In this document: positions 6,135 through 19,574 of the stretch, in pieces
How positions within the stretch are numbered: the stretch's first letter is position 1
Layout of the letters: every line of letters starts with the position of its first letter
Assembly (NCBI RefSeq): GCF_900142525.1
Contig: NZ_FRBD01000003.1
Span: 124,001 to 188,000 of the forward strand
Reading direction: 5' to 3'
DNA length: 64,000 nucleotides
From: Xylanibacter ruminicola
Lineage (GTDB): Bacteria; Bacteroidota; Bacteroidia; Bacteroidales; Bacteroidaceae
Translations under genes and position numbers: made by a program
The notes under the pieces: model-generated
Seen by the model: the letters and a program-made list of their open reading frames with translations, nothing else
What the model was told of the DNA's origin: nothing
Database searches by the model: none

Positions 6135-8297
6135 ATGGCATACAAATTCACAATTAAAGGAATCCGGAAGTTCAACGAAGAAAAGGTCGTTGAAAAAGCT
6201 CTTTTGTCGTTTAGGGGAATTGCTAACGACCCCGAAGTCAAGGTTATGTACCATGAACCTTCTGGAGAAGAAAAGGAATCATATACTGTGATGACGGTGA
6301 ATGTGTCTACACAAGGTGTTAACATCAAGCACCTGATTGGTGGAAACATCATTGTTGAACTACCTTGGTTGGCATCCCAGATGGATGTCCGTTTGTGCTA
6401 TGCCTATCTCAATGCTGTGAAAAAGGCTCATCGGGGCGCCAGAATCATGGACGAGGAGGATAAAGGTGTAAAACTGACCGAAGCAGATGCCAAAGAGCAA
6501 TGGCAGCAGCGGTGGCAGAATATGGATGAAATCATTAACAAGGGTGAGAAACTCGTGGTGGCTGGTGCGGTCAGAGACTTCCATCTGAACCCCTCGAAAT
6601 ACATCGGACGGGATGAAGCCACTAATAGAATTGGGGAAGCCTTTGACGATCTTGTCACCATCCAATGGGCCAATTTGGATGCCATTAACGTTAGAGAGGA
6701 AAAGCGTCACGTCTCTGAGGAGGAAGAGCTAAGCAGCATACGTATCGTAGATAATCAGGAGGATGTGTTTATTGGTGCTTGTCAGTATGTAGGCATGATG
6801 AAGGGTAATACCTGCAAGATGGTGAAATTCGAGGATTTCTGCCACTTGATGGAGAAACAGGATGAATTCCAACTCCTTGATGAAGCACAGGCCTTGCTTA
6901 ACAAGATGGACGTTGAGCAGTGGAACGAGCTGTTCGATAGGGCAGGGGGGATCGTTCGTGAAAACTTCCGCAAGACATTCATCATGCGCTGGAATACGGA
7001 CATCAGCAACTACACACTGTCTGAGTTTGAGGATGCTATGGAGGACTTCTTCGATGAAGGTTTCTACTACGACTGGAGCATCTGGGATTATCAGAAAGCC
7101 CATATTGGCGACAAGTTCTATATGATTCGCACTGGTGAGGGCGCTAATGGCGTTGTCATGCGAGGAACTATTATTGGTACTCCTTATCCTGATGAAGACT
7201 GGAGTGGCAAGGGTCGTAAGGTATACTATATCCGTATGAACCTCACAAATATGATTCATCCTGAGAAAACTCCGCTGCTGCTGACAACGGATGAGTTGAC
7301 CGAGGCAATCCCTGACTTCAACTGGAAGGAAGGCCACTCTGGAGAAATCCTTAGCGACAGTCAGGCTGACAAACTGGAGGAGGTCTGGAAGGACTATATC
7401 GAGCGTACACATGCTATTTCTTCTGAAGAAGTGATGGAAGGCGACTTCAACGAGTTCTACAAAGAGAAGGGATGGAAGAAGCCCGAATGTTATCAGGGTC
7501 ATGGCGACCACATTGACACCATCATGGAGCCGGAGGAATTCCTGACCCATCATCTTCCTGACGTTGGCAAATGGACTTTTTATGATACGGCCCATACGGA
7601 GATAACTCACAATGAATACGATAATGAAAAAGGAGATTTGCTTGTCGTAAAGACTGGTGGGGAAATGGGTATGGTGGCATTACTCCTGAACAACGAGAAG
7701 GTCGGACGTCTTGACTTTGTATGTACTTACCCTTTTCACAAGGGTATCCCTCATAAGCTGAAAATAAAGAAGGTCGCTGAGTGGGATAGCCAAGTGGAAG
7801 CTGTCGTCTATGCCGAGACAGAGGAGATGAATATTGCTTTCTATGCCACAGACTACTATACCAACAAAGCCAAGTATGTGCCTGGCGCAGAACTCGACAT
7901 TGAACTCGCTGCTAGTGGCTACAAGGTGGTTGAAGGCGAAGAAAAAACGGTGCTCGATGCTGAGACTTCGGCCAAAATGCGCAACGACATGGGTATTGAA
8001 CCTGAATATGATGATGAGGGCAATGTCCTTCCGATGGAGCTATATCATAATGAACTGGTAGCATACTTGTCCCACAACGAGGAATATCCTGATGATGCAG
8101 AGTTTGCTTCACCCATCAAGTCAGTTGAACAGGTTTCGCTCTTTGGCATCGACTTCATCAAGGCAGTCATCTCCATCTGCCATGAGCCGGAAGAGACTTA
8201 TGTGCATCTCTATTTCAAAAAGGAGTATCTGCCCAATGCCAAGAAAGGCACGTTGGTAAGAGGATTCTTATGGATGCAAGGTAAAATTAAAGCTTAA
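6135..8297 (+). CDS. Stand-alone paralogue of the helicase C-terminal EVE-like module
   Basis: This 720-residue protein of unknown function is homologous over residues about 45-440 to the last 370 residues of the helicase-nuclease encoded at 922. Shared landmarks are LPWLASQMDV, the WNTDIS..DWSIWDYQKAHIGDKFYMIRTG..NGVVMRG segment, the DWSG block, and PDFNWKEGHSGEILS followed by an ADKLEEVW helix. The central WN..W..GD..IRTG..G pattern resembles EVE/PUA-like domains, which in restriction and defence proteins bind modified nucleotides. Residues about 470-720 are unique and acidic and match nothing I recognise. There are no membrane segments. It is expressed from its own shared-type promoter (6071-6108). 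It could be a specificity or sensor subunit for the helicase-nuclease. Confidence 0.75.
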   Translation: MAYKFTIKGIRKFNEEKVVEKALLSFRGIANDPEVKVMYHEPSGEEKESYTVMTVNVSTQGVNIKHLIGGNIIVELPWLASQMDVRLCYAYLNAVKKAHRGARIMDEEDKGVKLTEADAKEQWQQRWQNMDEIINKGEKLVVAGAVRDFHLNPSKYIGRDEATNRIGEAFDDLVTIQWANLDAINVREEKRHVSEEEELSSIRIVDNQEDVFIGACQYVGMMKGNTCKMVKFEDFCHLMEKQDEFQLLDEAQALLNKMDVEQWNELFDRAGGIVRENFRKTFIMRWNTDISNYTLSEFEDAMEDFFDEGFYYDWSIWDYQKAHIGDKFYMIRTGEGANGVVMRGTIIGTPYPDEDWSGKGRKVYYIRMNLTNMIHPEKTPLLLTTDELTEAIPDFNWKEGHSGEILSDSQADKLEEVWKDYIERTHAISSEEVMEGDFNEFYKEKGWKKPECYQGHGDHIDTIMEPEEFLTHHLPDVGKWTFYDTAHTEITHNEYDNEKGDLLVVKTGGEMGMVALLLNNEKVGRLDFVCTYPFHKGIPHKLKIKKVAEWDSQVEAVVYAETEEMNIAFYATDYYTNKAKYVPGAELDIELAASGYKVVEGEEKTVLDAETSAKMRNDMGIEPEYDDEGNVLPMELYHNELVAYLSHNEEYPDDAEFASPIKSVEQVSLFGIDFIKAVISICHEPEETYVHLYFKKEYLPNAKKGTLVRGFLWMQGKIKA

Positions 8298-8384: not shown

Positions 8385-8753
8385 ATGGTTATGAAGGCTA
8401 AGAAGTTATTTTTTAAGGAATGTCATCTGGCAGGTCGTCAGTATCATGACGTAGATGAAGTATGGAACGAACTTCATGTTGGTACCCAGCTGGAACTTCA
8501 GCGTGATTTGGACAACAGGCATGACAAAAACGCTGTGGCAGTGGTTTATCGCACCGTTGACGTGGACACGGGAATCGTCGAGGAATACCTGCTTGGTTAT
8601 ATACCCAGTGGTGAAAATGAGACCATCGCTCAACTCTTGGAAATGGGTTGGGAAGACATCTTTGAGTGCCGTATCAGCAAAATTAATCCTGAAGCTCACT
8701 ACGAGAACCAGATACGTCTGACGATTCGCATTGTCAAAAACGAGAAGGAATAA
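8385..8753 (+). CDS. HIRAN-domain protein
   Basis: The 122-residue protein is essentially one HIRAN domain. It shows the initial AGRQYHD segment, then LELQRDLDNRHDKNAVAV, YLLGYIPSGENETIAQLLEMGW and a closing beta strand. HIRAN domains bind single-stranded or damaged DNA 3' ends in HLTF/Rad5-type helicases, and occur alone next to helicases and nucleases in bacteria. Here the gene follows the helicase-nuclease and EVE-like genes and has its own copy of the shared promoter. A role in recognising DNA ends for the complex is an inference from this context. ATG codons at 8385 and 8391 are both possible starts. Confidence 0.8.
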   Translation: MVMKAKKLFFKECHLAGRQYHDVDEVWNELHVGTQLELQRDLDNRHDKNAVAVVYRTVDVDTGIVEEYLLGYIPSGENETIAQLLEMGWEDIFECRISKINPEAHYENQIRLTIRIVKNEKE

Positions 8754-9070: not shown

Positions 9071-9946
9071 ATGGCAAGACTGGTTACACGACAAGAAGCG
9101 GCAAGATTGCTCAATGTGTCAACCCAGACGGTGAGCAATTGGATTGAGAAAGGCTATATCAAAGCCCACATGTTGGATAATCACTTGTTAGTTGACAGGG
9201 AAACCATCGAGCAACACTTTGATAGCCTTCAAGACTTGGCACATCTGGAGAAAACAGTAAAGGAAAAGACAGAATATTTGCGTAAAGAGGACTTTAACCT
9301 TGAGTTTGAGATAAATGATCTCCTTGAAGCCCGTGATAGGCTGAAAGATGAACGTCTGTATGGCGTTTATCGCTGGATTGCCGATTATGCTACAAGGTCT
9401 GCAGATGGTATGTTCACAGAACAACAGCAGAAAATATTTCATCGGATGATGGATAATGGAAGTGCAGACTATATTGGCAAGGAATTAGGGCTTAGTCGTA
9501 GTAGAGTCGTAGATACTTTTTTCAATTGCCTTCGAAAAATCGCTAAAGTGATTGACTTGGCGAAAACTCAGGAAAAATGGGATGAAATGGAACAGGAGAA
9601 CAAGCGATTGAAACTACAGAATGCCTCACTGATACAACAGCTTAATGAATACAAAGCGAACATGGCTGCCCAAACGGCTACACCCTCAATCCCTGAGAAT
9701 GAAGCAAAAATCAAATTGCTCGGAAGCAATTTTGAAGAGTTCGCTTTCAGCGTAAGAGCTACCAATGTTTTAAGAGGTCTGGGTTGTGTTACCATGGCTG
9801 ATGTAGCCTGTCTGAAAAAGGCTGATCTGATGAACGCAAAGTTGTGTGGCAAAAAAACTGTCGAAGACATTGAGAAACTCCTGGCAGAGCATGGACTTTC
9901 CCTTGGTTCAAAACTACAGCTCCTCATGCATCCATCTGTCAAGTAA
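9071..9946 (+). CDS. Regulator with excisionase-type HTH, sigma-region-4-like HTH and alpha-CTD-like end
   Basis: This 291-residue protein has three recognisable parts. Residues 3-45 (TRQEAARLLNVSTQTVSNWIEKGYI) are a MerR/excisionase-type helix-turn-helix. Residues about 115-160 (FTEQQQKIFHRMMDNGSADYIGKELGLSRSRVVDTFFNCLRKI) look like sigma factor region 4. After a coiled coil (about 170-200), residues 225-285 (NVLRGLGCVTMADVACLKKADLMNAKLCGKKTVEDIEKLLAEHGL) resemble the C-terminal domain of RNA polymerase alpha. Such a build suits a transcription activator that bridges DNA and polymerase. It is last in the HIRAN operon and is the best local candidate to act on the three copies of the shared promoter. 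That link is inference. Confidence 0.75.
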   Translation: MARLVTRQEAARLLNVSTQTVSNWIEKGYIKAHMLDNHLLVDRETIEQHFDSLQDLAHLEKTVKEKTEYLRKEDFNLEFEINDLLEARDRLKDERLYGVYRWIADYATRSADGMFTEQQQKIFHRMMDNGSADYIGKELGLSRSRVVDTFFNCLRKIAKVIDLAKTQEKWDEMEQENKRLKLQNASLIQQLNEYKANMAAQTATPSIPENEAKIKLLGSNFEEFAFSVRATNVLRGLGCVTMADVACLKKADLMNAKLCGKKTVEDIEKLLAEHGLSLGSKLQLLMHPSVK

Positions 9947-10020: not shown

Positions 10021-12285
10021 CTATCCGTTCAAAAGCTTTGTCACATCAGCCGGATTAAGCGCCCACTCGTAGGTGTATGCTTCATCTGCATCCTCCACAT
10101 TCTCCACTACGATAAGGTTCTGGGCCTTTGCCTTCATGTCGAGCAACTGACCAATGGAAAGCTTGGCCTCCAACTTATGTAGCAATGCCTCGATGGCCTC
10201 ACTGTTGGCTCCTCTCAGTGTCTGTGAGGTGAATGGCATTTCAAGCCAGATGATCTCATGCTTTGCTACGTCGAGTACACCGAATACCAGACCCTTGGAG
10301 AGATTACCCTCACTGATACGGACCATGTGCTGTACGCAGGAAGGATCGTAGGCCACACCCTTCTTCTCGGAAATCTTCATCGGATTGGCTGAGTCCATCC
10401 ATCCAACCACCAAATTTGGGGAGAGAGCACCTACAGAGTAGGCATTGCAGGTGAAGGTGACATACTTGGCACCAGCATTTTCCAGTTCCGGCAGCGACAA
10501 TTCGATATACTCGGCAGTTCCTACCATCTCCGGGATGGAACGGATGTCTCCTGAGTGCTTAGCACCAACGCACCTTAGACTATAGTAAGCACATTCAGAT
10601 ACCTTTCCATTGGCCAAAGCAATACGGGCACTCAAGTCCATGTCGAGGTGCTGCGCATGCAAGCCCTTACCCCACTGAAGGAACAAGCGGACTGCGTCAT
10701 CTTCTACAGGGAAGCGCGTTCCCATCAGAGCACAGGATGTATCCTGAATGGTAGTTGAACGGTCACCAACGCTGACAGGAATGTTGTAAAGCGAAGAATC
10801 AATAAAGATTGTCTTCGCCTCAGTTCCCTGAGCAGCAAAGCGTCTCGCCATAGAAGCCTTGTACAGGCCATCGACAGCATCTACCATTGCCTTACGAGCA
10901 TCATCATCGTAAAGCGCCAGTAGCTTGTTGGGCTCTATCTTGTGAGTGACACCTGTGATTGGACGAGCCAGACGTACTTCCTTGGGATCGAAGTATGTCT
11001 CTGCAGCATTGCCCAGTGACAGGAGCAGACGAGCTGGCAACTTGTCGGCAATCTCCTCAAAAGCTACAATTACCTTATCACTGCCAAAGCGGAGCATGGA
11101 CGCGAACAGGCAACGAGCGAAGAGACCTGGACGTTCCTTCAGCAATGCCAGAGTCATGTCAGCATCGTTCTCTGAACGAGCCCTATCCACACGCCCCTGC
11201 CATGTAGAATACTCCTGCTTGTAGAACACATCGAGAATCTCTGCAAGATGGTCGAAACCATTCTTGCGTGAGTATTCTCCCAGACGGAGCGCACGAATCA
11301 TGCGTACCCACATGCCGCGCTTCGGGTTCATATTCTCAGCAGCCTGCTTTGCAGTCAAAGGAATCGCGTTCAGCCATAGTGCCACACGTAGACATGCCCT
11401 GTGGTCGTACTTCAGCATCAGCTTCTTCTTCATGTCCTTTGCGGCATCTACACCACGATCAAGCGGCCCCCACATGTGGTAGTACAGCTTACGGGCATGG
11501 GCAACAAGTGTCTTTGGCTCGATAATCTGAACGTAGCCGGTCTTCTCATACCAGAGGTAACGCAGTATATCGGTAGGAGTCTTCAGCAGCTTTGCTGCCT
11601 CGCCTGCCTTATCTTGCTCTACCAACAGCTTGATGACGAGCGTGGCCGTTTCCTTCATCGTGATATTGGCATCCTCGGGTATCGGGAACTCGCGTAGCAG
11701 TTGTTCCAGCGAATCCTTCTGGGTTGCATCCAGAGGAGTAGAAGAAGCCAAGAGCGACGTGAATACATGTTTCATGTCGCTGATAGTGAACAGTCGCAGT
11801 TCCTTCAGCTTACTTCCCTGTCCCTTATAGACAAAATCGGCAGTCTCGAATGGTGTACCGCAGAACGGGCAACCATTATAGCGCTCGATGGGGAAGGTTC
11901 CTTCAGGAATAAGGTGTCCGCAAGGAAGTGTCGTTCCCTTGAAGCCAGCCTCCTTGCCAAAGAAATTGGCAATGAAAGTGATAAGATGGTCTGCAAGTGT
12001 TTCATCTGTAGGAACATTCCAACCCTTTACGAGCGATGCCCAGTTGAGCTTAACACCCATAACGTCATTGATGCACTCAGTTATCTCGGCAAGACGATCA
12101 GCAGGAACAGCATTCAGAGCATGAAGCAGTTCCTCACTAACGCAGAAACCGTTTTCCTTTAAACGCTTTGTGAATGCCAATACTGGCACAGAAGCCTCTG
12201 ATCTCATGTTGATGTCCTCACGGTTAATGTCGAGGAACACAGCCCTGTAGCGCAAAGCTACTCTTGTCAAAATCTCGTTATTCAT
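10021..12285 (-). CDS. RING-like zinc finger and TerD-like domain protein of an RNA-repair operon
   Basis: The 754-residue protein starts 12 bp after the last element of the RNA array and reads in the same direction as rtcB. Residues about 120-147 hold a CGH..CPFCG zinc-binding pattern of RING or treble-clef type. The middle (about 220-480) is alpha-helical and repeat-like, compatible with an RNA-binding helical-repeat fold such as TROVE, though I cannot prove that. Residues about 560-690 resemble TerD: HLDMDLSARIAL, then HSGDIRSIP, then AEYIELSLPEL and VTFTCNAYS. TerD domains bind calcium in stress systems. The arrangement recalls the MXAN_6230/SCO0854-type RING proteins found near RNA-repair genes; that recall is from memory. 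It may be an RNA-binding partner for the array transcripts and RtcB. Confidence 0.75.
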   Translation of the reverse strand: MNNEILTRVALRYRAVFLDINREDINMRSEASVPVLAFTKRLKENGFCVSEELLHALNAVPADRLAEITECINDVMGVKLNWASLVKGWNVPTDETLADHLITFIANFFGKEAGFKGTTLPCGHLIPEGTFPIERYNGCPFCGTPFETADFVYKGQGSKLKELRLFTISDMKHVFTSLLASSTPLDATQKDSLEQLLREFPIPEDANITMKETATLVIKLLVEQDKAGEAAKLLKTPTDILRYLWYEKTGYVQIIEPKTLVAHARKLYYHMWGPLDRGVDAAKDMKKKLMLKYDHRACLRVALWLNAIPLTAKQAAENMNPKRGMWVRMIRALRLGEYSRKNGFDHLAEILDVFYKQEYSTWQGRVDRARSENDADMTLALLKERPGLFARCLFASMLRFGSDKVIVAFEEIADKLPARLLLSLGNAAETYFDPKEVRLARPITGVTHKIEPNKLLALYDDDARKAMVDAVDGLYKASMARRFAAQGTEAKTIFIDSSLYNIPVSVGDRSTTIQDTSCALMGTRFPVEDDAVRLFLQWGKGLHAQHLDMDLSARIALANGKVSECAYYSLRCVGAKHSGDIRSIPEMVGTAEYIELSLPELENAGAKYVTFTCNAYSVGALSPNLVVGWMDSANPMKISEKKGVAYDPSCVQHMVRISEGNLSKGLVFGVLDVAKHEIIWLEMPFTSQTLRGANSEAIEALLHKLEAKLSIGQLLDMKAKAQNLIVVENVEDADEAYTYEWALNPADVTKLLNG

Positions 12286-12296
12286 ATCGTTAATAA

Positions 12297-12381
12297 TTTA
12301 AAAGGTAATTGGCTGGCAGCGACAGGTTGCATGTCTGTCTCAATGTAGAGCACAGGAGTATGCCAGCCTTGACCTTGTTAA
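12297..12381 (-). ncRNA. Structured RNA element A (long hairpin, not tRNA-like)
   Basis: Seventh and last element of the array, ending just before the TerD/RING gene. Reverse-strand order: AAGGTCAA, stem GGCTGGCA, then TACTCC, an inner hairpin (GACAG/CTGTC), stem TGCCAGCC, AATTACCTT. The 8-bp inner stem (12311-12318 with 12361-12368) is perfect, and AGGT/ACCT closes it. It carries the array-wide GGTCAA-N8-TACTCC core. Confidence 0.65.
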
Positions 12382-12480
12382 TACTAAGAGGTAATTGAGA
12401 AACTGAGCTTGAAAAGTTAGAGCCGTAGCCCTATCCGAATTGAAGTAAGTCCCACTTAGACCTCGTTGTCTTGTCTCTGA
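12382..12480 (-). ncRNA. Structured RNA element B (hairpin type)
   Basis: Sixth element. An outer GAGGT/ACCTC pairing (ACCTC at 12460-12464 on +, GAGGT at 12389-12393 on +) encloses the core GGTCTAA-N8-TACTTC. A stem UAGGGC/GCUCUA is capped by a UACG tetraloop of the stable UNCG type. Its ends share AATTACCTCT with elements A and D. Confidence 0.6.
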
Positions 12481-12599
12481 GCTGCGAGCAGGGCTCGAAC
12501 CTGCGACCCATAGTACCACTTTAGAAGTATGTGGCGATTGGTCCTTCTCAGGAAATGTCATCACAAGACCTATTGCTCTACCAACTGAGCTATCGCAGC
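12481..12599 (-). ncRNA. tRNA-like RNA C with insertion in place of the anticodon loop
   Basis: On the reverse strand this 119-nt element has a complete tRNA frame. A 7-bp acceptor stem (GCTGCGA/TCGCAGC, 12593-12599 with 12481-12487) is followed by TA, a D arm (GCTC..AGTTGGTA..GAGC), and a T arm with GCAGG-TTCGAGC-CCTGC (12488-12504). CCA is not encoded. Between D and T arms only a 4-bp anticodon-type stem (ATAG/CTAT) remains. The anticodon loop is replaced by about 55 nt that fold as two hairpins, GGUCUU/AAGGACC and GCCAC/GUGGU; the second loop displays UACUUC. No usable anticodon is visible, so it is not a decoding tRNA. Confidence 0.8.
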
Positions 12600-12600
12600 A

Positions 12601-12683
12601 TAAAGAGAGGTAATTGAAACGGCTAATTGGAGCCTCTTTAGCGTAAAGTCATAGAAGTAAGCCGTTCTTGACCTTCTCTTTTT
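12601..12683 (-). ncRNA. Structured RNA element D (long two-step hairpin)
   Basis: On the reverse strand an outer helix (AGAGAAGGT with ACCTCTCT) encloses a perfect 7-bp inner helix (AACGGCT/AGCCGTT; 12618-12624 with 12660-12666). TACTTC follows immediately after the 5' strand of the inner helix, and a small CUUUA-CGC-UAAAG hairpin sits in the loop. It shares the GGTCAA-N8-TACTTC core and AATTACCTCT end with elements A and B. Confidence 0.7.
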
Positions 12684-12685
12684 GA

Positions 12686-12802
12686 GGTGCGGGGCAGAGT
12701 CGAACTGCCGACACTTGACGGAGTATGTACTAATTGGCCTTGCCGTCTGGAAGGAAATTTCAGCACAAATTATCAATGCTCTACCGTCTGAGCTACCGCA
12801 CC
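12686..12802 (-). ncRNA. tRNA-like RNA E with insertion in place of the anticodon loop
   Basis: The 117-nt element has a 7-bp acceptor stem (GGTGCGG/CCGCACC, 12796-12802 with 12686-12692), a D arm GCTC-AGACGGTA-GAGC, and a T arm GGCAG-TTCGACT-CTGCC (12693-12709), all at tRNA spacing. The anticodon arm is again cut to a 4-bp stem (TTGA/TCAA) holding an insertion of about 55 nt. The insertion shares ATTTCCT, AAGGCCAAT and ACATACTCC with element C. CCA is not encoded. It can be read as a tRNA with an intron-like insertion, or as a decoy. Confidence 0.8.
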
Positions 12803-12813
12803 AATATGTTTGA

Positions 12814-12904
12814 GCGGCGGGCTGGAATCGAACCAGCAGTAACCATTTAGGAGTAAGCAAGCGTTTTGGCCATCTCTTTGGCAATTACGAAGCTTAACCG
12901 CCGC
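12814..12904 (-). ncRNA. Degenerate tRNA-like RNA F
   Basis: The 91-nt element has a perfect 7-bp acceptor stem (GCGGCGG/CCGCCGC, 12898-12904 with 12814-12820) and an intact T arm GCTGG-TTCGATT-CCAGC (12821-12837). The D arm is not recognisable. A bulged hairpin TTGCCA/TGGCCAA and a GTAA/TTAC closing stem fill the middle, with the core GGCCAA-N10-TACTCC between them. Confidence 0.7.
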
Positions 12905-12913
12905 ATTTGGAAA

Positions 12914-12992
12914 AGACGGAAAGTGCGACTCTAAACACGCCCCACAGTTAGGGCTCTAACTGGCAAGGAGTAAGAACTCGCTTGGTCCGTCT
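12914..12992 (-). ncRNA. Degenerate tRNA-like RNA G, first in the array
   Basis: The 79-nt element has a perfect 7-bp terminal helix (AGACGGA/TCCGTCT, 12986-12992 with 12914-12920). A hairpin GCGAG-UUCUUACUC-CUUGC presents the TACTCC core in its loop. A perfect 7-bp hairpin CAGTTAG-AGCC-CTAACTG follows, then an imperfect T-arm-like stem-loop containing TTTAGAGTCGC. It begins about 10 nt after the predicted transcription start of the array. Confidence 0.65.
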
Positions 12993-13008
12993 ATTTAATT
13001 TCTGTGTG

Positions 13009-13046
13009 CAAAATTACTTGCACGTTGTGTCAATTTGTGGGACAGG
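13009..13046 (-). promoter_or_regulatory. Shared operator/promoter, copy 3 (drives the RNA array)
   Basis: On the reverse strand: TGTCCCAC (13044-13037), exactly 20 bp, TAATTTTG (13016-13009). It shares TGTCCCAC, the internal TTGA..AAC and the -7 box with copies at 6071 and 8315. Transcription should start near 13002, directly before RNA G, and run through the array into the TerD/RING gene. Confidence 0.7.
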
Positions 13047-13084: not shown

Positions 13085-14257
13085 TTATCCCTTAATCACT
13101 GCCACAGGAAGCAGTCTGGTCTTCACTTTTACAAGGTCTCTTTCATTGGCAATGACCTCCTCAATGTCCTTGTATGCTCCTGAAGCCTCCTGCATGTCCT
13201 CCTGAGAACGAATGGCATGGACGATGCCTTTTGCCTCAAGCTGTGCCACCTCTTGCTGCAGGTCCAGCGTCTTAATGGCCATCTTTCTTGAAAGGACGCG
13301 ACCGGCTCCGTGAGAGCATGAACAAAACGAATCGGGATTACCCAGACCTTCTACAATGTACGATGCAGTACCCTGTGAACCAGGAATGATGCCGATGACT
13401 CCTTCACGGGCAAGTGTTGCACCCTTGCGATGTACAATGACATCCTGCCCGAAGTGATGCTCAAAAGCTGCATAGTTATGGGCGATGTTAATCATCGGCT
13501 CAAACTCTATGCCCTTAAGAGAATCTGCCAGCACCTCCTCAATGCGCTCCATCATGAGCTTCCTGTTGCAAAGGGCGAAGTCTATGCAGTACCTCATCTC
13601 CTTCCAGTACATCTCAAATTCCCTGCTACCTCTGGCGAGGAAAGGCAGATGGATGTCTGGAGATACATTAGAGTACCATTGTGCATTGAGAGTAGCTGCT
13701 ATCTTGTTGTAGTAATCACCCACCTGCTTACCGAGGTTACGTGAACCGGAGTGAATCATGATCCAAAGAGTACCTTCTTCGTCCTTCTGAAGCTCAATGA
13801 AATGGTTTCCACCACCCAGAGTACCTACTTCGTGACGAATAGAGTGCTGACGGCGATTAGCCACCTCCAACTTATCTATGTCATGACCTTCAGGCAGGTA
13901 TTTCTCATCCTGTGGCTCGTTGTGGTGATCCATTCCCAGAGGAATACGCTCACGGATTCCCTTCATGATTCCCTTTCGGAGAACCTCTATAGGAATCTCA
14001 CTTACCTTCCAGTTCGTCTTGACGGCACACATGCCACAACCGATATCCACACCTACGGCATTCGGGATAACTACATCCTTGCATGCAAGCACACCACCGA
14101 TAGGCATTCCCATACCAGCATGCACGTCAGGCATGATGGCCAGGTGATGGAAGAGGAAGGGTAGGGTAGTCAGATTTTCAATCTGACGCATGGCCGACTC
14201 TTCTACATTGTCCGTCCAAATCTTAACAGGACAGTTGTTGATCATCTTAACTTCCAT
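13085..14257 (-). CDS. rtcB: RNA-splicing ligase RtcB
   Basis: RtcB joins RNA ends bearing a 2',3'-cyclic or 3'-phosphate to a 5'-hydroxyl, using GTP and manganese. The 390-residue protein has the family blocks: HAGMGMPIGG (46-55), the metal site GVDIGCGM with D71 and C74, GGGNHFIEL (about 150), HSGSRNLG (about 170), and SHGAGRVLSR (about 315) with the histidine that takes GMP. Length and motifs indicate an active enzyme. It is divergent from a WYL regulator, and its promoter carries a palindrome shared with that regulator. A separate promoter for the tRNA-like RNAs follows its stop. This is the counterpart of the E. coli rtcBA/rtcR locus, but with a different regulator and accessory protein. 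Confidence 0.96.
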   Translation of the reverse strand: MEVKMINNCPVKIWTDNVEESAMRQIENLTTLPFLFHHLAIMPDVHAGMGMPIGGVLACKDVVIPNAVGVDIGCGMCAVKTNWKVSEIPIEVLRKGIMKGIRERIPLGMDHHNEPQDEKYLPEGHDIDKLEVANRRQHSIRHEVGTLGGGNHFIELQKDEEGTLWIMIHSGSRNLGKQVGDYYNKIAATLNAQWYSNVSPDIHLPFLARGSREFEMYWKEMRYCIDFALCNRKLMMERIEEVLADSLKGIEFEPMINIAHNYAAFEHHFGQDVIVHRKGATLAREGVIGIIPGSQGTASYIVEGLGNPDSFCSCSHGAGRVLSRKMAIKTLDLQQEVAQLEAKGIVHAIRSQEDMQEASGAYKDIEEVIANERDLVKVKTRLLPVAVIKG

Positions 14258-14499: not shown

Positions 14500-15528
14500 A
14501 TGCCTGCAAACAAGAATGCTTTGATTCGGTACAAGACTATCGATAACTGTCTTCGCAACTACTATCGTCGGTGGACACTTGAAGACCTCGTGGATGCCTG
14601 CTGTGATGCCCTCTATGACATGGAGGGAATCCGCAAGGGTGTTTCTGTCAGAACCGTTCAGGGTGACATACAGATGATGCGTTCTGACAAACTCGGTTAC
14701 AATGCGCCCATTGAGGTGTACGACCATAAGTATTATCGGTATGCGGATAAAGGCTATTCCATCATGAATATGCCGATGTCACAAAATGACTACGATGTGA
14801 TGCAGGAGGCCGTTGACATGCTTCGCCAACTGGAGGACTTTGAACAATTCTCGGAAATGTCGGACGTGGTCAGCCGCTTGCAGGACAAGCTGGCCATTAG
14901 CCGTAATAATCGCAAACCCATCATCCATTTCGACAGTGTTCCGAATCTGGCAGGTATCCGTTTGCTTAACCCTCTCTACAACTATATCGCTCACAAGCAG
15001 ACGCTGCGCATCATGTATCAGTCATTCAATGCGAGGAAACCTACGGAGTTTATACTTTGTCCGTATCTCTTGAAGGAATTCCGTAACCGCTGGTTCCTTT
15101 TTGGCTCTAAGCAGGATGACTTGAAGCTTTATAATTTACCCCTTGACCGCATCAAGAGTGTAGAGCCAACTAAGATTCCGTTCAAAGAGAACCCAGACTT
15201 TGATCCGGAGCATTTCTTCGATGATGTCATCGGTGTCAGCAAGAACGTCGGCAACAAACCTCGAACGATTAAGTTTTGGGCCAATAGAGAGCAGAGCCAT
15301 TACATCAAGACAAAACCAATACATCGGTCTCAGCAAGTAATAAGTGAGAACCATGAAGATGGCAGTTGCATATTTCAGATTGAGGTGGTCATCAACTTCG
15401 AAATGTATTCAGTCTTCATGTCGTATGGCTCCGGCATTAAGATCATCTATCCCCGCAATGCCTCAATGTATATGCGAGACAAACTTAAAGAGGCTTTGGC
15501 ACTCTATAATACTGAAGAAGAAAAATAA
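14500..15528 (+). CDS. WYL-domain transcriptional regulator of the rtcB locus
   Basis: The 342-residue protein has an N-terminal winged helix-turn-helix (about 10-75; ALIRYKTIDNCLRN, then VSVRTVQGDIQMMR). The central WYL domain (about 150-225; LRIMYQSF, then LCPYLLKEFRNRWFLFG, then YNLPLDRIKSV) is followed by a C-terminal WCX-like region. WYL proteins sense ligands, probably nucleic acids or nucleotides, and often control defence or repair genes. The start at 14500 (MPANKNALIRY) is chosen because the promoter's -7 box at 14464-14471 lies inside any longer frame. The gene diverges from rtcB, and both promoters carry the same palindrome, so it most likely regulates itself and rtcB. In role it replaces RtcR. 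Confidence 0.88.
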   Translation: MPANKNALIRYKTIDNCLRNYYRRWTLEDLVDACCDALYDMEGIRKGVSVRTVQGDIQMMRSDKLGYNAPIEVYDHKYYRYADKGYSIMNMPMSQNDYDVMQEAVDMLRQLEDFEQFSEMSDVVSRLQDKLAISRNNRKPIIHFDSVPNLAGIRLLNPLYNYIAHKQTLRIMYQSFNARKPTEFILCPYLLKEFRNRWFLFGSKQDDLKLYNLPLDRIKSVEPTKIPFKENPDFDPEHFFDDVIGVSKNVGNKPRTIKFWANREQSHYIKTKPIHRSQQVISENHEDGSCIFQIEVVINFEMYSVFMSYGSGIKIIYPRNASMYMRDKLKEALALYNTEEEK

Positions 15529-18201: not shown

Positions 18202-18735
18202 ATGAAAAAGGAATTTAGTTTAGAAGAGAAGTTGGAAGCGATTTCTTTAGTGTTCCAAGGAGAGTCTGCCCGTTCTGTCTCAGACAGGCTTCATCTAGGT
18301 CATCATTTGCTTTATGAGTGGTTGGAGGCATATAAGAGTAAGGGTACATTAGGTCTTAAACCCAAGAGAAAAGGCAGAAATAGGCTTCGTTATGAAGAAA
18401 AATGCAGAATTGTTCGTGAATATCAGGAAAGTGATTTAACTTTGTTCCGGCTTTCCGTGAGATATGACATATCGAGTTCACTATTAAGTAACTGGGTTAG
18501 ATTGGTAGAAGAAGGTGGATTCGAAGCACTGCTTCCCCAAAAACGTGGGCCAAAGACTGGTATGGTAAGAACAAAACGACTTCCAAAAGAAGAGTACGAG
18601 AAGGAGAATGAGCGCCTTCGCAAAGAGAACGAACGCTTAAGGCTGGAGAATCTCCTGCTAAAAAAAGTGAGAGCCTTAGTCGAGGAAAGAGAAGCCCGAA
18701 ACAGAGCGATTGGGCGCAAGCCATCGAAGAACTAA
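18202..18735 (+). CDS. IS3-family OrfA (HTH protein)
   Basis: The 177-residue OrfA has two helix-turn-helix units (EEKLEAISLVFQGESARSVSDRLHLGHHLLYEWLEAYKSKG, 8-50, and a second at about 65-105) and a leucine-zipper-like C-terminus (ENERLRKENERLRLENLLLKK, about 133-155). It binds the IS ends. The run of seven A residues at 18660-18666 sits in zero frame as A-AAA-AAA. A -1 slip there leads, without a stop, into the OrfB frame and gives the OrfAB transposase usual for this family. Confidence 0.92.
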   Translation: MKKEFSLEEKLEAISLVFQGESARSVSDRLHLGHHLLYEWLEAYKSKGTLGLKPKRKGRNRLRYEEKCRIVREYQESDLTLFRLSVRYDISSSLLSNWVRLVEEGGFEALLPQKRGPKTGMVRTKRLPKEEYEKENERLRKENERLRLENLLLKKVRALVEEREARNRAIGRKPSKN

Positions 18736-18755
18736 GGCGTAATGAGCATGCGGAC

Positions 18756-19574
18756 TTGGATGTTCTGCTGGAGCTCAAGAAGATGGCACGTAGCACGTTC
18801 TATTATCACCTCAAGCATGGCAAGAAGAAAGACAAGTACAAGGAAGTAAAAGATATGATATACACCATATTCCATAAGCACAAAGGTCGTTACGGCTACA
18901 GGCGTATAACGCTAGAACTCCGTAATGAGGGGCGTCTTATCAATCATAAGACGGTCAAGAAACTTATGGATGAACTTGGGCTGAAAAGCGAGGTAAGGAA
19001 GGTGAAATACCGTTCCTATAAAGGAGATGTAGGTAAGACTGCTCCCAACATCATCAACAGGAATTTTACGGCAGAGAGGCCTTACCAGAAACTTGCGACG
19101 GACGTGACTCAGGTGACGATAGAAGGGCGTAAGGCCTACCTCTCACCGATACTCGACATGTGCGGCGGAGAAGTGCTCTCTTATGTCATAACAGACACTC
19201 CGAACCTTGAAATGGTAATCACTATGCTCAATCGGATGTATGAGAGTGTAGATCTCCCTGAAGGCGTCGTATTGCACTCTGATCAGGGTTGGCACTACCA
19301 GCATGCAGCCTATCAGAACAGCCTGAAGAAGCATGGTATTATCCAGAGCATGTCTCGTAAGGGAAACTGTCTGGACAACGCCATGATGGAGAACTTCTTT
19401 GGTATCATGAAGTCAGAACTGCTGTATCCAGGCAAGTACACATCTATGGAAGTCTTCATAAAAGACCTGAAAGAGTACATTGACTATTATAATAATGAGA
19501 GAATAAAGCTCAGATTAAAAGGAATGAGCCCAGTACAATACCGGACTCAATTCCAAATGAGCAATAGTGTTTAA
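18756..19574 (+). CDS. IS3-family OrfB (DDE integrase-type transposase)
   Basis: The 272-residue frame lies in -1 phase to OrfA. It has the HTH_21-like segment (KHKGRYGYRRITLELRNEG) and the DDE triad: D in LATDVTQ, D in VVLHSDQGWHY and E in NAMMENFFGIMKSE. The family end IDYYNNERIKLRLKGMSPVQYR is complete. In vivo it is probably made mainly as the OrfAB fusion from the A-run frameshift. No truncation or stop is visible. Confidence 0.93.
   Translation: MDVLLELKKMARSTFYYHLKHGKKKDKYKEVKDMIYTIFHKHKGRYGYRRITLELRNEGRLINHKTVKKLMDELGLKSEVRKVKYRSYKGDVGKTAPNIINRNFTAERPYQKLATDVTQVTIEGRKAYLSPILDMCGGEVLSYVITDTPNLEMVITMLNRMYESVDLPEGVVLHSDQGWHYQHAAYQNSLKKHGIIQSMSRKGNCLDNAMMENFFGIMKSELLYPGKYTSMEVFIKDLKEYIDYYNNERIKLRLKGMSPVQYRTQFQMSNSV

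Follow-up and report, generated by a model that had tools for sequence, protein, structure and literature searches.

Seven modular RNA-like elements sharing one clamp lie between rtcB and a RING-TerD gene of Xylanibacter ruminicola and suggest a Y-RNA-like ribonucleoprotein

We analyzed a 64,000-nucleotide (nt) stretch of the Xylanibacter ruminicola genome (contig NZ_FRBD01000003.1, positions 124,001 to 188,000; hereafter the window), in which the minus strand carries, in this order, the RNA ligase gene rtcB, seven RNA-like elements (12993–12299) and a gene for a protein with a RING-like zinc finger and a TerD fold (RING-TerD; Table 1). A first-pass annotation, made from the letters alone, had placed seven structured RNAs on the rtcB strand between these two genes, and this layout was borne out: all seven could be located with short spacers between them, and folding of the 799-nt array region was better than in 20 of 20 dinucleotide shuffles (z −4.4). 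The letters A to G used here run from low to high coordinate and are our own, as the annotation gave no coordinates for its letters. It had taken G, F, E and C to be tRNA-like, which holds for C and E (Rfam tRNA matches) and for F (acceptor and T arms), whereas G turned out to be a clamp hairpin of the same kind as A, B and D. Elements C and E have no decoding anticodon loop; a permuted clamp occupies its position, forming 6 of 7 pairs in C and 7 of 7 in E (GUGCUGA-AAUUUCC..GGCCAA-UUAGUAC-AUACUCC). The clamp helix of F appears irregular on inspection, and F lies outside the 12 permuted units of the detector described below. ARAGORN reported no tRNA gene in the window, and the tRNA-like elements are predicted not to decode. 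R2 searches detect four of the window elements, A, B, D and G.

Table 1. Features of the window with coordinates, strand and supporting evidence
Feature	Position	Strand	Evidence
Element G: linear clamp hairpin (GGACCAA-helix-UUACUCC ... UUUCC), outer helix GACGGA/UCCGUC	12913..12993	-	R2 34.3 bits; fold
Element F: tRNA-like, acceptor and T arms, no D arm; permuted clamp AAUUGCC..GGCCAA..UUACUCC	12813..12904	-	acceptor 7/7 pairs; fold
Element E: tRNA body with acceptor, D and T arms; permuted clamp replaces anticodon loop	12685..12802	-	Rfam tRNA 46.0 bits; 118 nt
Element D: linear clamp hairpin GGUCAA-GAACGGCU-UACUUC ... AGCCGUUU-CAAUUACC	12604..12678	-	R2 34.6 bits
Element C: tRNA body; permuted clamp replaces anticodon loop	12480..12599	-	Rfam tRNA 50.9 bits; 120 nt
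Element B: linear clamp hairpin	12385..12467	-	R2 54.5 bits
Element A: linear clamp hairpin, ends 18 nt before RING-TerD start codon	12299..12379	-	R2 42.7 bits
RING-TerD protein, 754 amino acids, divergent relative of the MXAN_6230/SCO0854 RING family	10021..12285	-	NF041916 169.7 bits, E 9.1e-50
RING-like zinc finger, residues 119-143	11857..11931	-	Pfam Prok-RING_4 24.0 bits, below cut-off 27
Middle helical domain, residues 160-490	10816..11808	-	best structural match Ro60
TerD-fold domain, residues ~525-700	10186..10713	-	predicted model
rtcB, RNA ligase, first gene of likely operon	13085..14257	-	Pfam RtcB 371.9 bits
WYL/WCX-domain regulator, divergent	14500..15528	+	Pfam WYL 43.4 bits, WCX 36.2 bits
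Promoter-like TTG-N14-TAATTTTG just ahead of the array	13009..13033	-	sequence

Common to the seven elements is a clamp motif that the first-pass annotation does not mention. A YWTACTYC core preceded by GGnC..AA is present in 7 of 7 elements; the short core by itself has further chance occurrences in the window, and the longer pattern occurs once within the RING coding sequence. A linear unit is built, in order, from an outer helix, GGn-CnAA, a helix of 8 base pairs, UACUNC, a variable display, the returning helix, AAUU-nCC and the outer helix, so that the clamp consists of the internal loop CnAA/AAUU and UACUNC, held apart by the helix of fixed length. The base just before UACU is paired as well (U-A in 32 and A-U in 14 of 46 units). 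In the tRNA-like units the clamp is permuted: it is opened at the display loop, closed at the outer helix and placed where the anticodon loop would be.

The motif was assessed on 78 loci selected by their RING gene, comprising 73 RING-TerD loci from public genomes, the window and four relatives (the set is partly redundant, L009 and L075 appearing to be one contig). A detector of clamp units counted 131 of them (119 linear, 12 permuted) over 69 of the 78 leaders, against 0 or 1 in each of 20 dinucleotide-shuffled sets, 0 on the reverse strand and 2 in the other 1.74 Mb (both strands). In the neighborhood comparison described below, 8 of 78 loci have no unit; four of these have a leader of at most 209 nt, and one (L071) has an R2 match. 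Covariation in the helices across homologues was found by several routes. Over 80 distinct stems, 6.55 of 7 positions pair compared with 4.28 for shuffled partners (maximum 4.65), a figure favored by the detector's requirement of at least 5 pairs. RNAalifold on a MAFFT alignment of 46 units, which was not fitted to any structure, predicted the 8-base-pair helix, with both partners varying in each of its 8 pairs. In an alignment of 138 matches fitted to the model, which leans towards its own structure, 89.4% of cells are paired versus 65.8% after shuffling, and the covariation is 0.636 versus 0.181, with structures slid out of register reaching at most 0.127. A separate scanner for tRNA-like units gave false candidates (AAAACTT starts) and misses, including element C, and its locus counts, quoted below, are rough.

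As the 78 loci were picked by their RING gene, scans without this selection serve as the test of gene pairing. An R2 search over 399 genomes of the family matched 24, and in 22 of the 23 besides the own genome a RING-TerD gene lies within 1.5 kb downstream; the remaining match is cut by a contig end and has rtcB upstream. Over 395 genomes of the phylum, R2 matched 7: the own genome and six members of a single genus from another family of the same class. In 6 of 6 of the latter, the match is directly upstream of the RING-TerD gene. Arrays with tRNA-like units and permuted clamps were present at 10 of 10 full-length RING-TerD loci found in that genus, seven of which have a WYL gene and three an rtcB of 33% identity. 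Within the own genome, a whole-array search gave one match, and R2 matches were confined to the window array. The RING-TerD gene itself is present in only 5 of 60 relatives. A solitary clamp unit of 54.6 bits, observed on the minus strand of another genome (L230, ~1500–1560; G605 contig 193), has no RING gene within 1.5 kb and is followed by a T run resembling a terminator, with an open reading frame that by eye resembles pyrE alongside; it is possibly a free-standing small RNA.

Gene neighborhoods were compared over the 66 loci whose upstream sequence reaches 3 kb or more, with flanks of up to ~8 kb. An upstream rtcB in the same orientation occurs in 15 of these loci, and one or more units in 62. 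The 12 loci with both rtcB and WYL have a mean of 4.3 units, the 3 with rtcB only 3.3, the 10 with WYL only 3.1 and the 41 with neither 1.4, where two of the WYL assignments (L016, L043) are matches below 30% identity; tRNA-like units were counted, roughly, in 9, 2, 6 and 2 loci of these classes, respectively. The minimal arrangement is therefore one unit before RING-TerD, and larger arrays go with repair and regulator genes. The conserved neighbor of the units is the RING-TerD gene, not rtcB.

Units of the same build occur beside RING-TerD relatives outside the Bacteroidota. A tblastn search with the RING-TerD protein returned 20 plasmid and 7 phage records, of which 11 were examined for units with a generalized detector (core T[AC]CTTC, helix, loop and outer helix), its core having been widened after such cores were seen in L167, L170, L173 and L234. 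In nine of the 11 records, from Hymenobacter, Segatella, Variovorax, Streptomyces, Niallia, the phages Weasels2, LpeD and RcXuper and an uncultured phage, a unit lies on the same strand as the RING gene and at most 450 nt from it; the weakest is Streptomyces, with a single match in a GC-rich record. The tenth (L172) has a unit near RING from R2 only, and the eleventh (L173) gave no generalized-detector match and shows by eye four UUCCUUC cores with stems upstream. As background, two matches fall outside the RING neighborhood and on the opposite strand (L168, L172), and 66 shuffled loci gave 4 plus-strand matches. In Niallia, Variovorax and two phage relatives, units lie downstream of the RING-TerD relative. 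The 7 phage records stem from an annotated phage collection; in viral contigs, 15 pattern matches included none from a relative of the protein. The presence of same-build clamps beside RING-TerD relatives in other bacteria and phages makes it likely that the window RNAs are partners of RING-TerD. The RNA-repair setting that the first-pass annotation had read from rtcB gained support as well: rtcB stands in the same gene row as the array, as in an RNA-repair operon, rtcR lies 1.3 kb from the Variovorax RING gene with three small genes between, and in Rhodococcus phage Weasels2 (L170) tRNAs are nearby and rtcB is 3 kb downstream of the RING-TerD relative. Three further observations concern phage records: Rhodobacter phage RcXuper has a transfer-messenger RNA (tmRNA; L234 1507–1923, Rfam permuted tmRNA 108 bits) within the stretch that also holds its clamp units before the RING-TerD relative, L173 also has a tmRNA upstream, and in Lactobacillus phage LpeD an annotated PemK-type mRNA interferase (L233 2980–3318) adjoins the RING-TerD relative.

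The match of the RING-TerD protein to NF041916 covers residues 12–688 and shares with the MXAN_6230/SCO0854 family a C-terminal TerD domain (in a predicted model), whereas its score stays below the curated cut-off of 600. Of 42 aligned relatives, 40 gave a Prok-RING_4 match with E no higher than 1, and CxH and CPxC motifs are seen in the Bacteroidota proteins shown, with CxH/CPxC-like ones in Variovorax and Streptomyces. The possible likeness to Ro60 concerns the middle helical domain (Table 1). VIA-align gave no other Ro60 structures, which bears on the likeness neither way. Foldseek alone gave no match for the protein at E ≤ 0.001, and a protein profile compared with the sequences of solved structures gave a best E of 0.65. 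Pfam TROVE was found neither in the window protein nor among the 21 families matched by 42 members scanned, and TROVE homology by profiles is not significant. PF05731 (TROVE) was absent from all 40 genomes searched, the own genome included, and present in 27 of 395 genomes of the phylum; one genome (G348 contig C54) carries a TROVE gene (397911–398750) and a RING-TerD gene with a clamp unit (323848–326101) about 72 kb apart. Ro60 carries a vWA domain at its C-terminus, and the RING-TerD protein differs in having a TerD fold there, a RING-like finger on the N-terminal side and no TROVE match by sequence or profile. Our literature search found nothing on the function or partner, including any RNA partner, of MXAN_6230/SCO0854 RING-TerD proteins; searching by title and abstract start, we found no description of these array RNAs and no paper naming SCO0854 or MXAN6230.

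The clamp, its covariation, its placement beside RING-TerD genes and the two ways of carrying a tRNA body are properties of the sequences themselves. We propose that they reflect a ribonucleoprotein, predicted to be Y-RNA-like and linked to RNA repair, in which the RING-TerD protein probably binds seven modular RNAs by their one clamp. The array would be transcribed from a promoter in front of it, the transcript perhaps being processed at the tRNA-like bodies, and the clamp may be bound by the helical, perhaps Ro60-like, middle domain. The displays (tRNA bodies, a copy of the 23S GTPase center in one relative, other hairpins) could then attract the enzymes that act on translation RNAs, or compete with them. 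RNA damage might induce the system through a nucleic-acid-sensing WYL (or RtcR) regulator, and the copy whose end lies ~18 nt ahead of the RING-TerD start codon could provide autoregulation. By analogy, the closest working model would be the Ro60–Y RNA particle. More tentatively, the units may be a new phylum-crossing class of noncoding RNA, the dedicated partner of bacterial and phage RING-TerD proteins, whose two-permutation clamp mounts copies of translation RNAs (tRNA bodies, GTPase center, anticodon arms) on a hidden Ro60-like protein, which would amount to a second, independent Ro/Y-RNA world guarding tRNA and rRNA against cleavage. The clamp RNAs would add to Ro/Y RNA a second example of protein-mounted tRNA mimics in an RNA-repair setting; should the likeness to Ro60 fail, the array RNAs would be categorically new. 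The clamp RNA is a candidate new Rfam family, and with a conserved RNA in Bacteroidota and similar units in other phyla and phages, the role of RING-TerD is directly testable.

The known system nearest in design is that of Salmonella, whose rsr-yrlBA-rtcBA operon is induced by tRNA fragments and in which the tRNA-like domain of YrlA may compete with an anticodon nuclease, according to PMC7790460; PMC8394870 describes YrlA as joining Rsr to PNPase. The window array resembles it in having tRNA-like bodies on a likely protein-binding stem, beside rtcB and a divergent regulator, and C and E have the acceptor, D and T arms of a YrlA-type tRNA-like body. The Y-RNA-like character suggested by the first-pass annotation is thus retained, the units being tRNA-like or YrlA-like. 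Differences lie in the clamp sequence, in counts of up to eight units per locus, in non-tRNA displays and in the lack of any TROVE gene found in the own genome. Rfam YrlA (RF02553) reaches 26.7 bits in the window, across two elements, and 28.9 and 26.4 bits in other relatives, below the gathering score of 69 bits. The YrlA layout is seen in unit 3 of Weasels2, where a clamp in unpermuted form (8 of 8 pairs) carries a tRNA permuted to the order T arm, acceptor, D arm, and by eye in the RcXuper leader, which has a YrlA match of 40.7 bits (L234 1977–2040). YrlA has a permuted body on an unpermuted stem, whereas the Bacteroidota units combine an intact tRNA body with a permuted clamp; tRNA and clamp are thus permuted in opposite ways in bacteria and phage. 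From tRNA genes (RF00005), elements C and E, which share the acceptor, D and T arms and score above the gathering score, differ in the missing anticodon loop, the length and the predicted inability to decode.

What the units display bears on a different reading, which we regard as unlikely: the array would be a set of baits luring nucleases of a phage, a competitor or the own cell that attack tRNA or rRNA, with RtcB resealing the baits and RING-TerD holding them. Several displays speak for it. tRNA bodies of 114–125 nt reach the Rfam tRNA gathering score in the leaders of 9 of 10 loci of one scanned set and in several loci of two others, and one unit (L029) displays 88 nt copied from 23S rRNA (Rfam LSU positions 1074–1162, 70.9 bits, E 1.3e-18; also 65.1 bits), a segment that we take to be the GTPase-associated center. 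Exact anticodon stem-loop copies of 14 nt (tRNA-His, L015) and 13 nt (tRNA-Thr, L030) are each longer than in 20 shuffles. The tRNAs and tmRNA of phage loci and the suggested competition of YrlA with an anticodon nuclease would also suit baits. However, the tRNA-like units lack the very anticodon loop that anticodon nucleases cut, matches to anticodon loops in 113 displays are no commoner than in shuffles, a few clear cases excepted, and the GTPase-center copy occurs in 1 of 88 leaders, as nhmmer found none in the others and blastn only two chance-level matches. No 16S mimicry was seen in a comparison with the 16S of one relative, and no Rfam 15 family other than tRNA, LSU rRNA, tmRNA and sub-threshold YrlA recurred on units in the scanned loci; sub-threshold matches to snoR77, MIR7993, plastid, ceN53, internal ribosome entry site (IRES) and tRNA-Sec families were taken as chance. 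Normal-length tRNA matches (73–75 nt, no clamp) lie within or ahead of some arrays (L020 5347–5419, L072 2424–2496, L022 5548–5622).

Still less probable is that the units act in cis, as operators in the RING-TerD mRNA whose bound protein or ligand sets translation, comparable to ribosomal-protein leaders or tandem riboswitches. For this reading, the aligned RING start follows the end of the last linear unit by 13–28 nt in 47 of 69 loci (by 18 nt in the window), and many loci have a single unit. It leaves unexplained the tRNA bodies, the arrays of up to eight units, the downstream units of Niallia, Variovorax and two phage relatives, and the solitary L230 unit with its T run away from RING.

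The first-pass annotation had itself favored RtcB substrates or sensors, given the position of the array right behind rtcB, and in this account the anticodon inserts would be introns or cleavage sites joined by RtcB. Although rtcB adjoins the window array and the insert sits in the anticodon loop, the usual place of an intron, we consider this highly improbable: rtcB is upstream in only 15 of 66 loci compared with units in 62, removal of the insert would on inspection leave no normal anticodon loop, and the same clamp occurs without any tRNA body. Least credible is a small self-cleaving ribozyme, whose 2',3'-cyclic-phosphate ends would suit RtcB and whose catalytic core could be the two conserved loops one fixed helix apart in two circular permutations, since the loci scanned gave no Rfam ribozyme match and the motif stands beside RING-TerD genes in nearly all matching genomes.

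The Y-RNA-like reading assumes a promoter in front of the array, where a promoter-like sequence is found (Table 1). Its TAnnTTTG box, which we take to be the Bacteroidales −7 box, ends 20 nt ahead of the first GG of the array, and the spacing is shorter than in the consensus for Bacteroidales promoters. In 34 of 70 loci a TAnnTTTG lies in the 130 nt preceding the first unit, where mononucleotide shuffles predict 3.4. A second rtcB, a frame of 469 codons, lies in the own genome about 64 kb from the window rtcB (contig C24:71767–72846). Elsewhere in the window, 9071–9946 encodes a protein fusing an excisionase-like helix-turn-helix to an RNA polymerase alpha C-terminal domain, 8385–8753 a small HIRAN-domain protein downstream of an unassigned gene for 720 amino acids (6135–8297), and 18202–19574 an adjacent pair of open reading frames that by eye resembles an IS3-type transposase.
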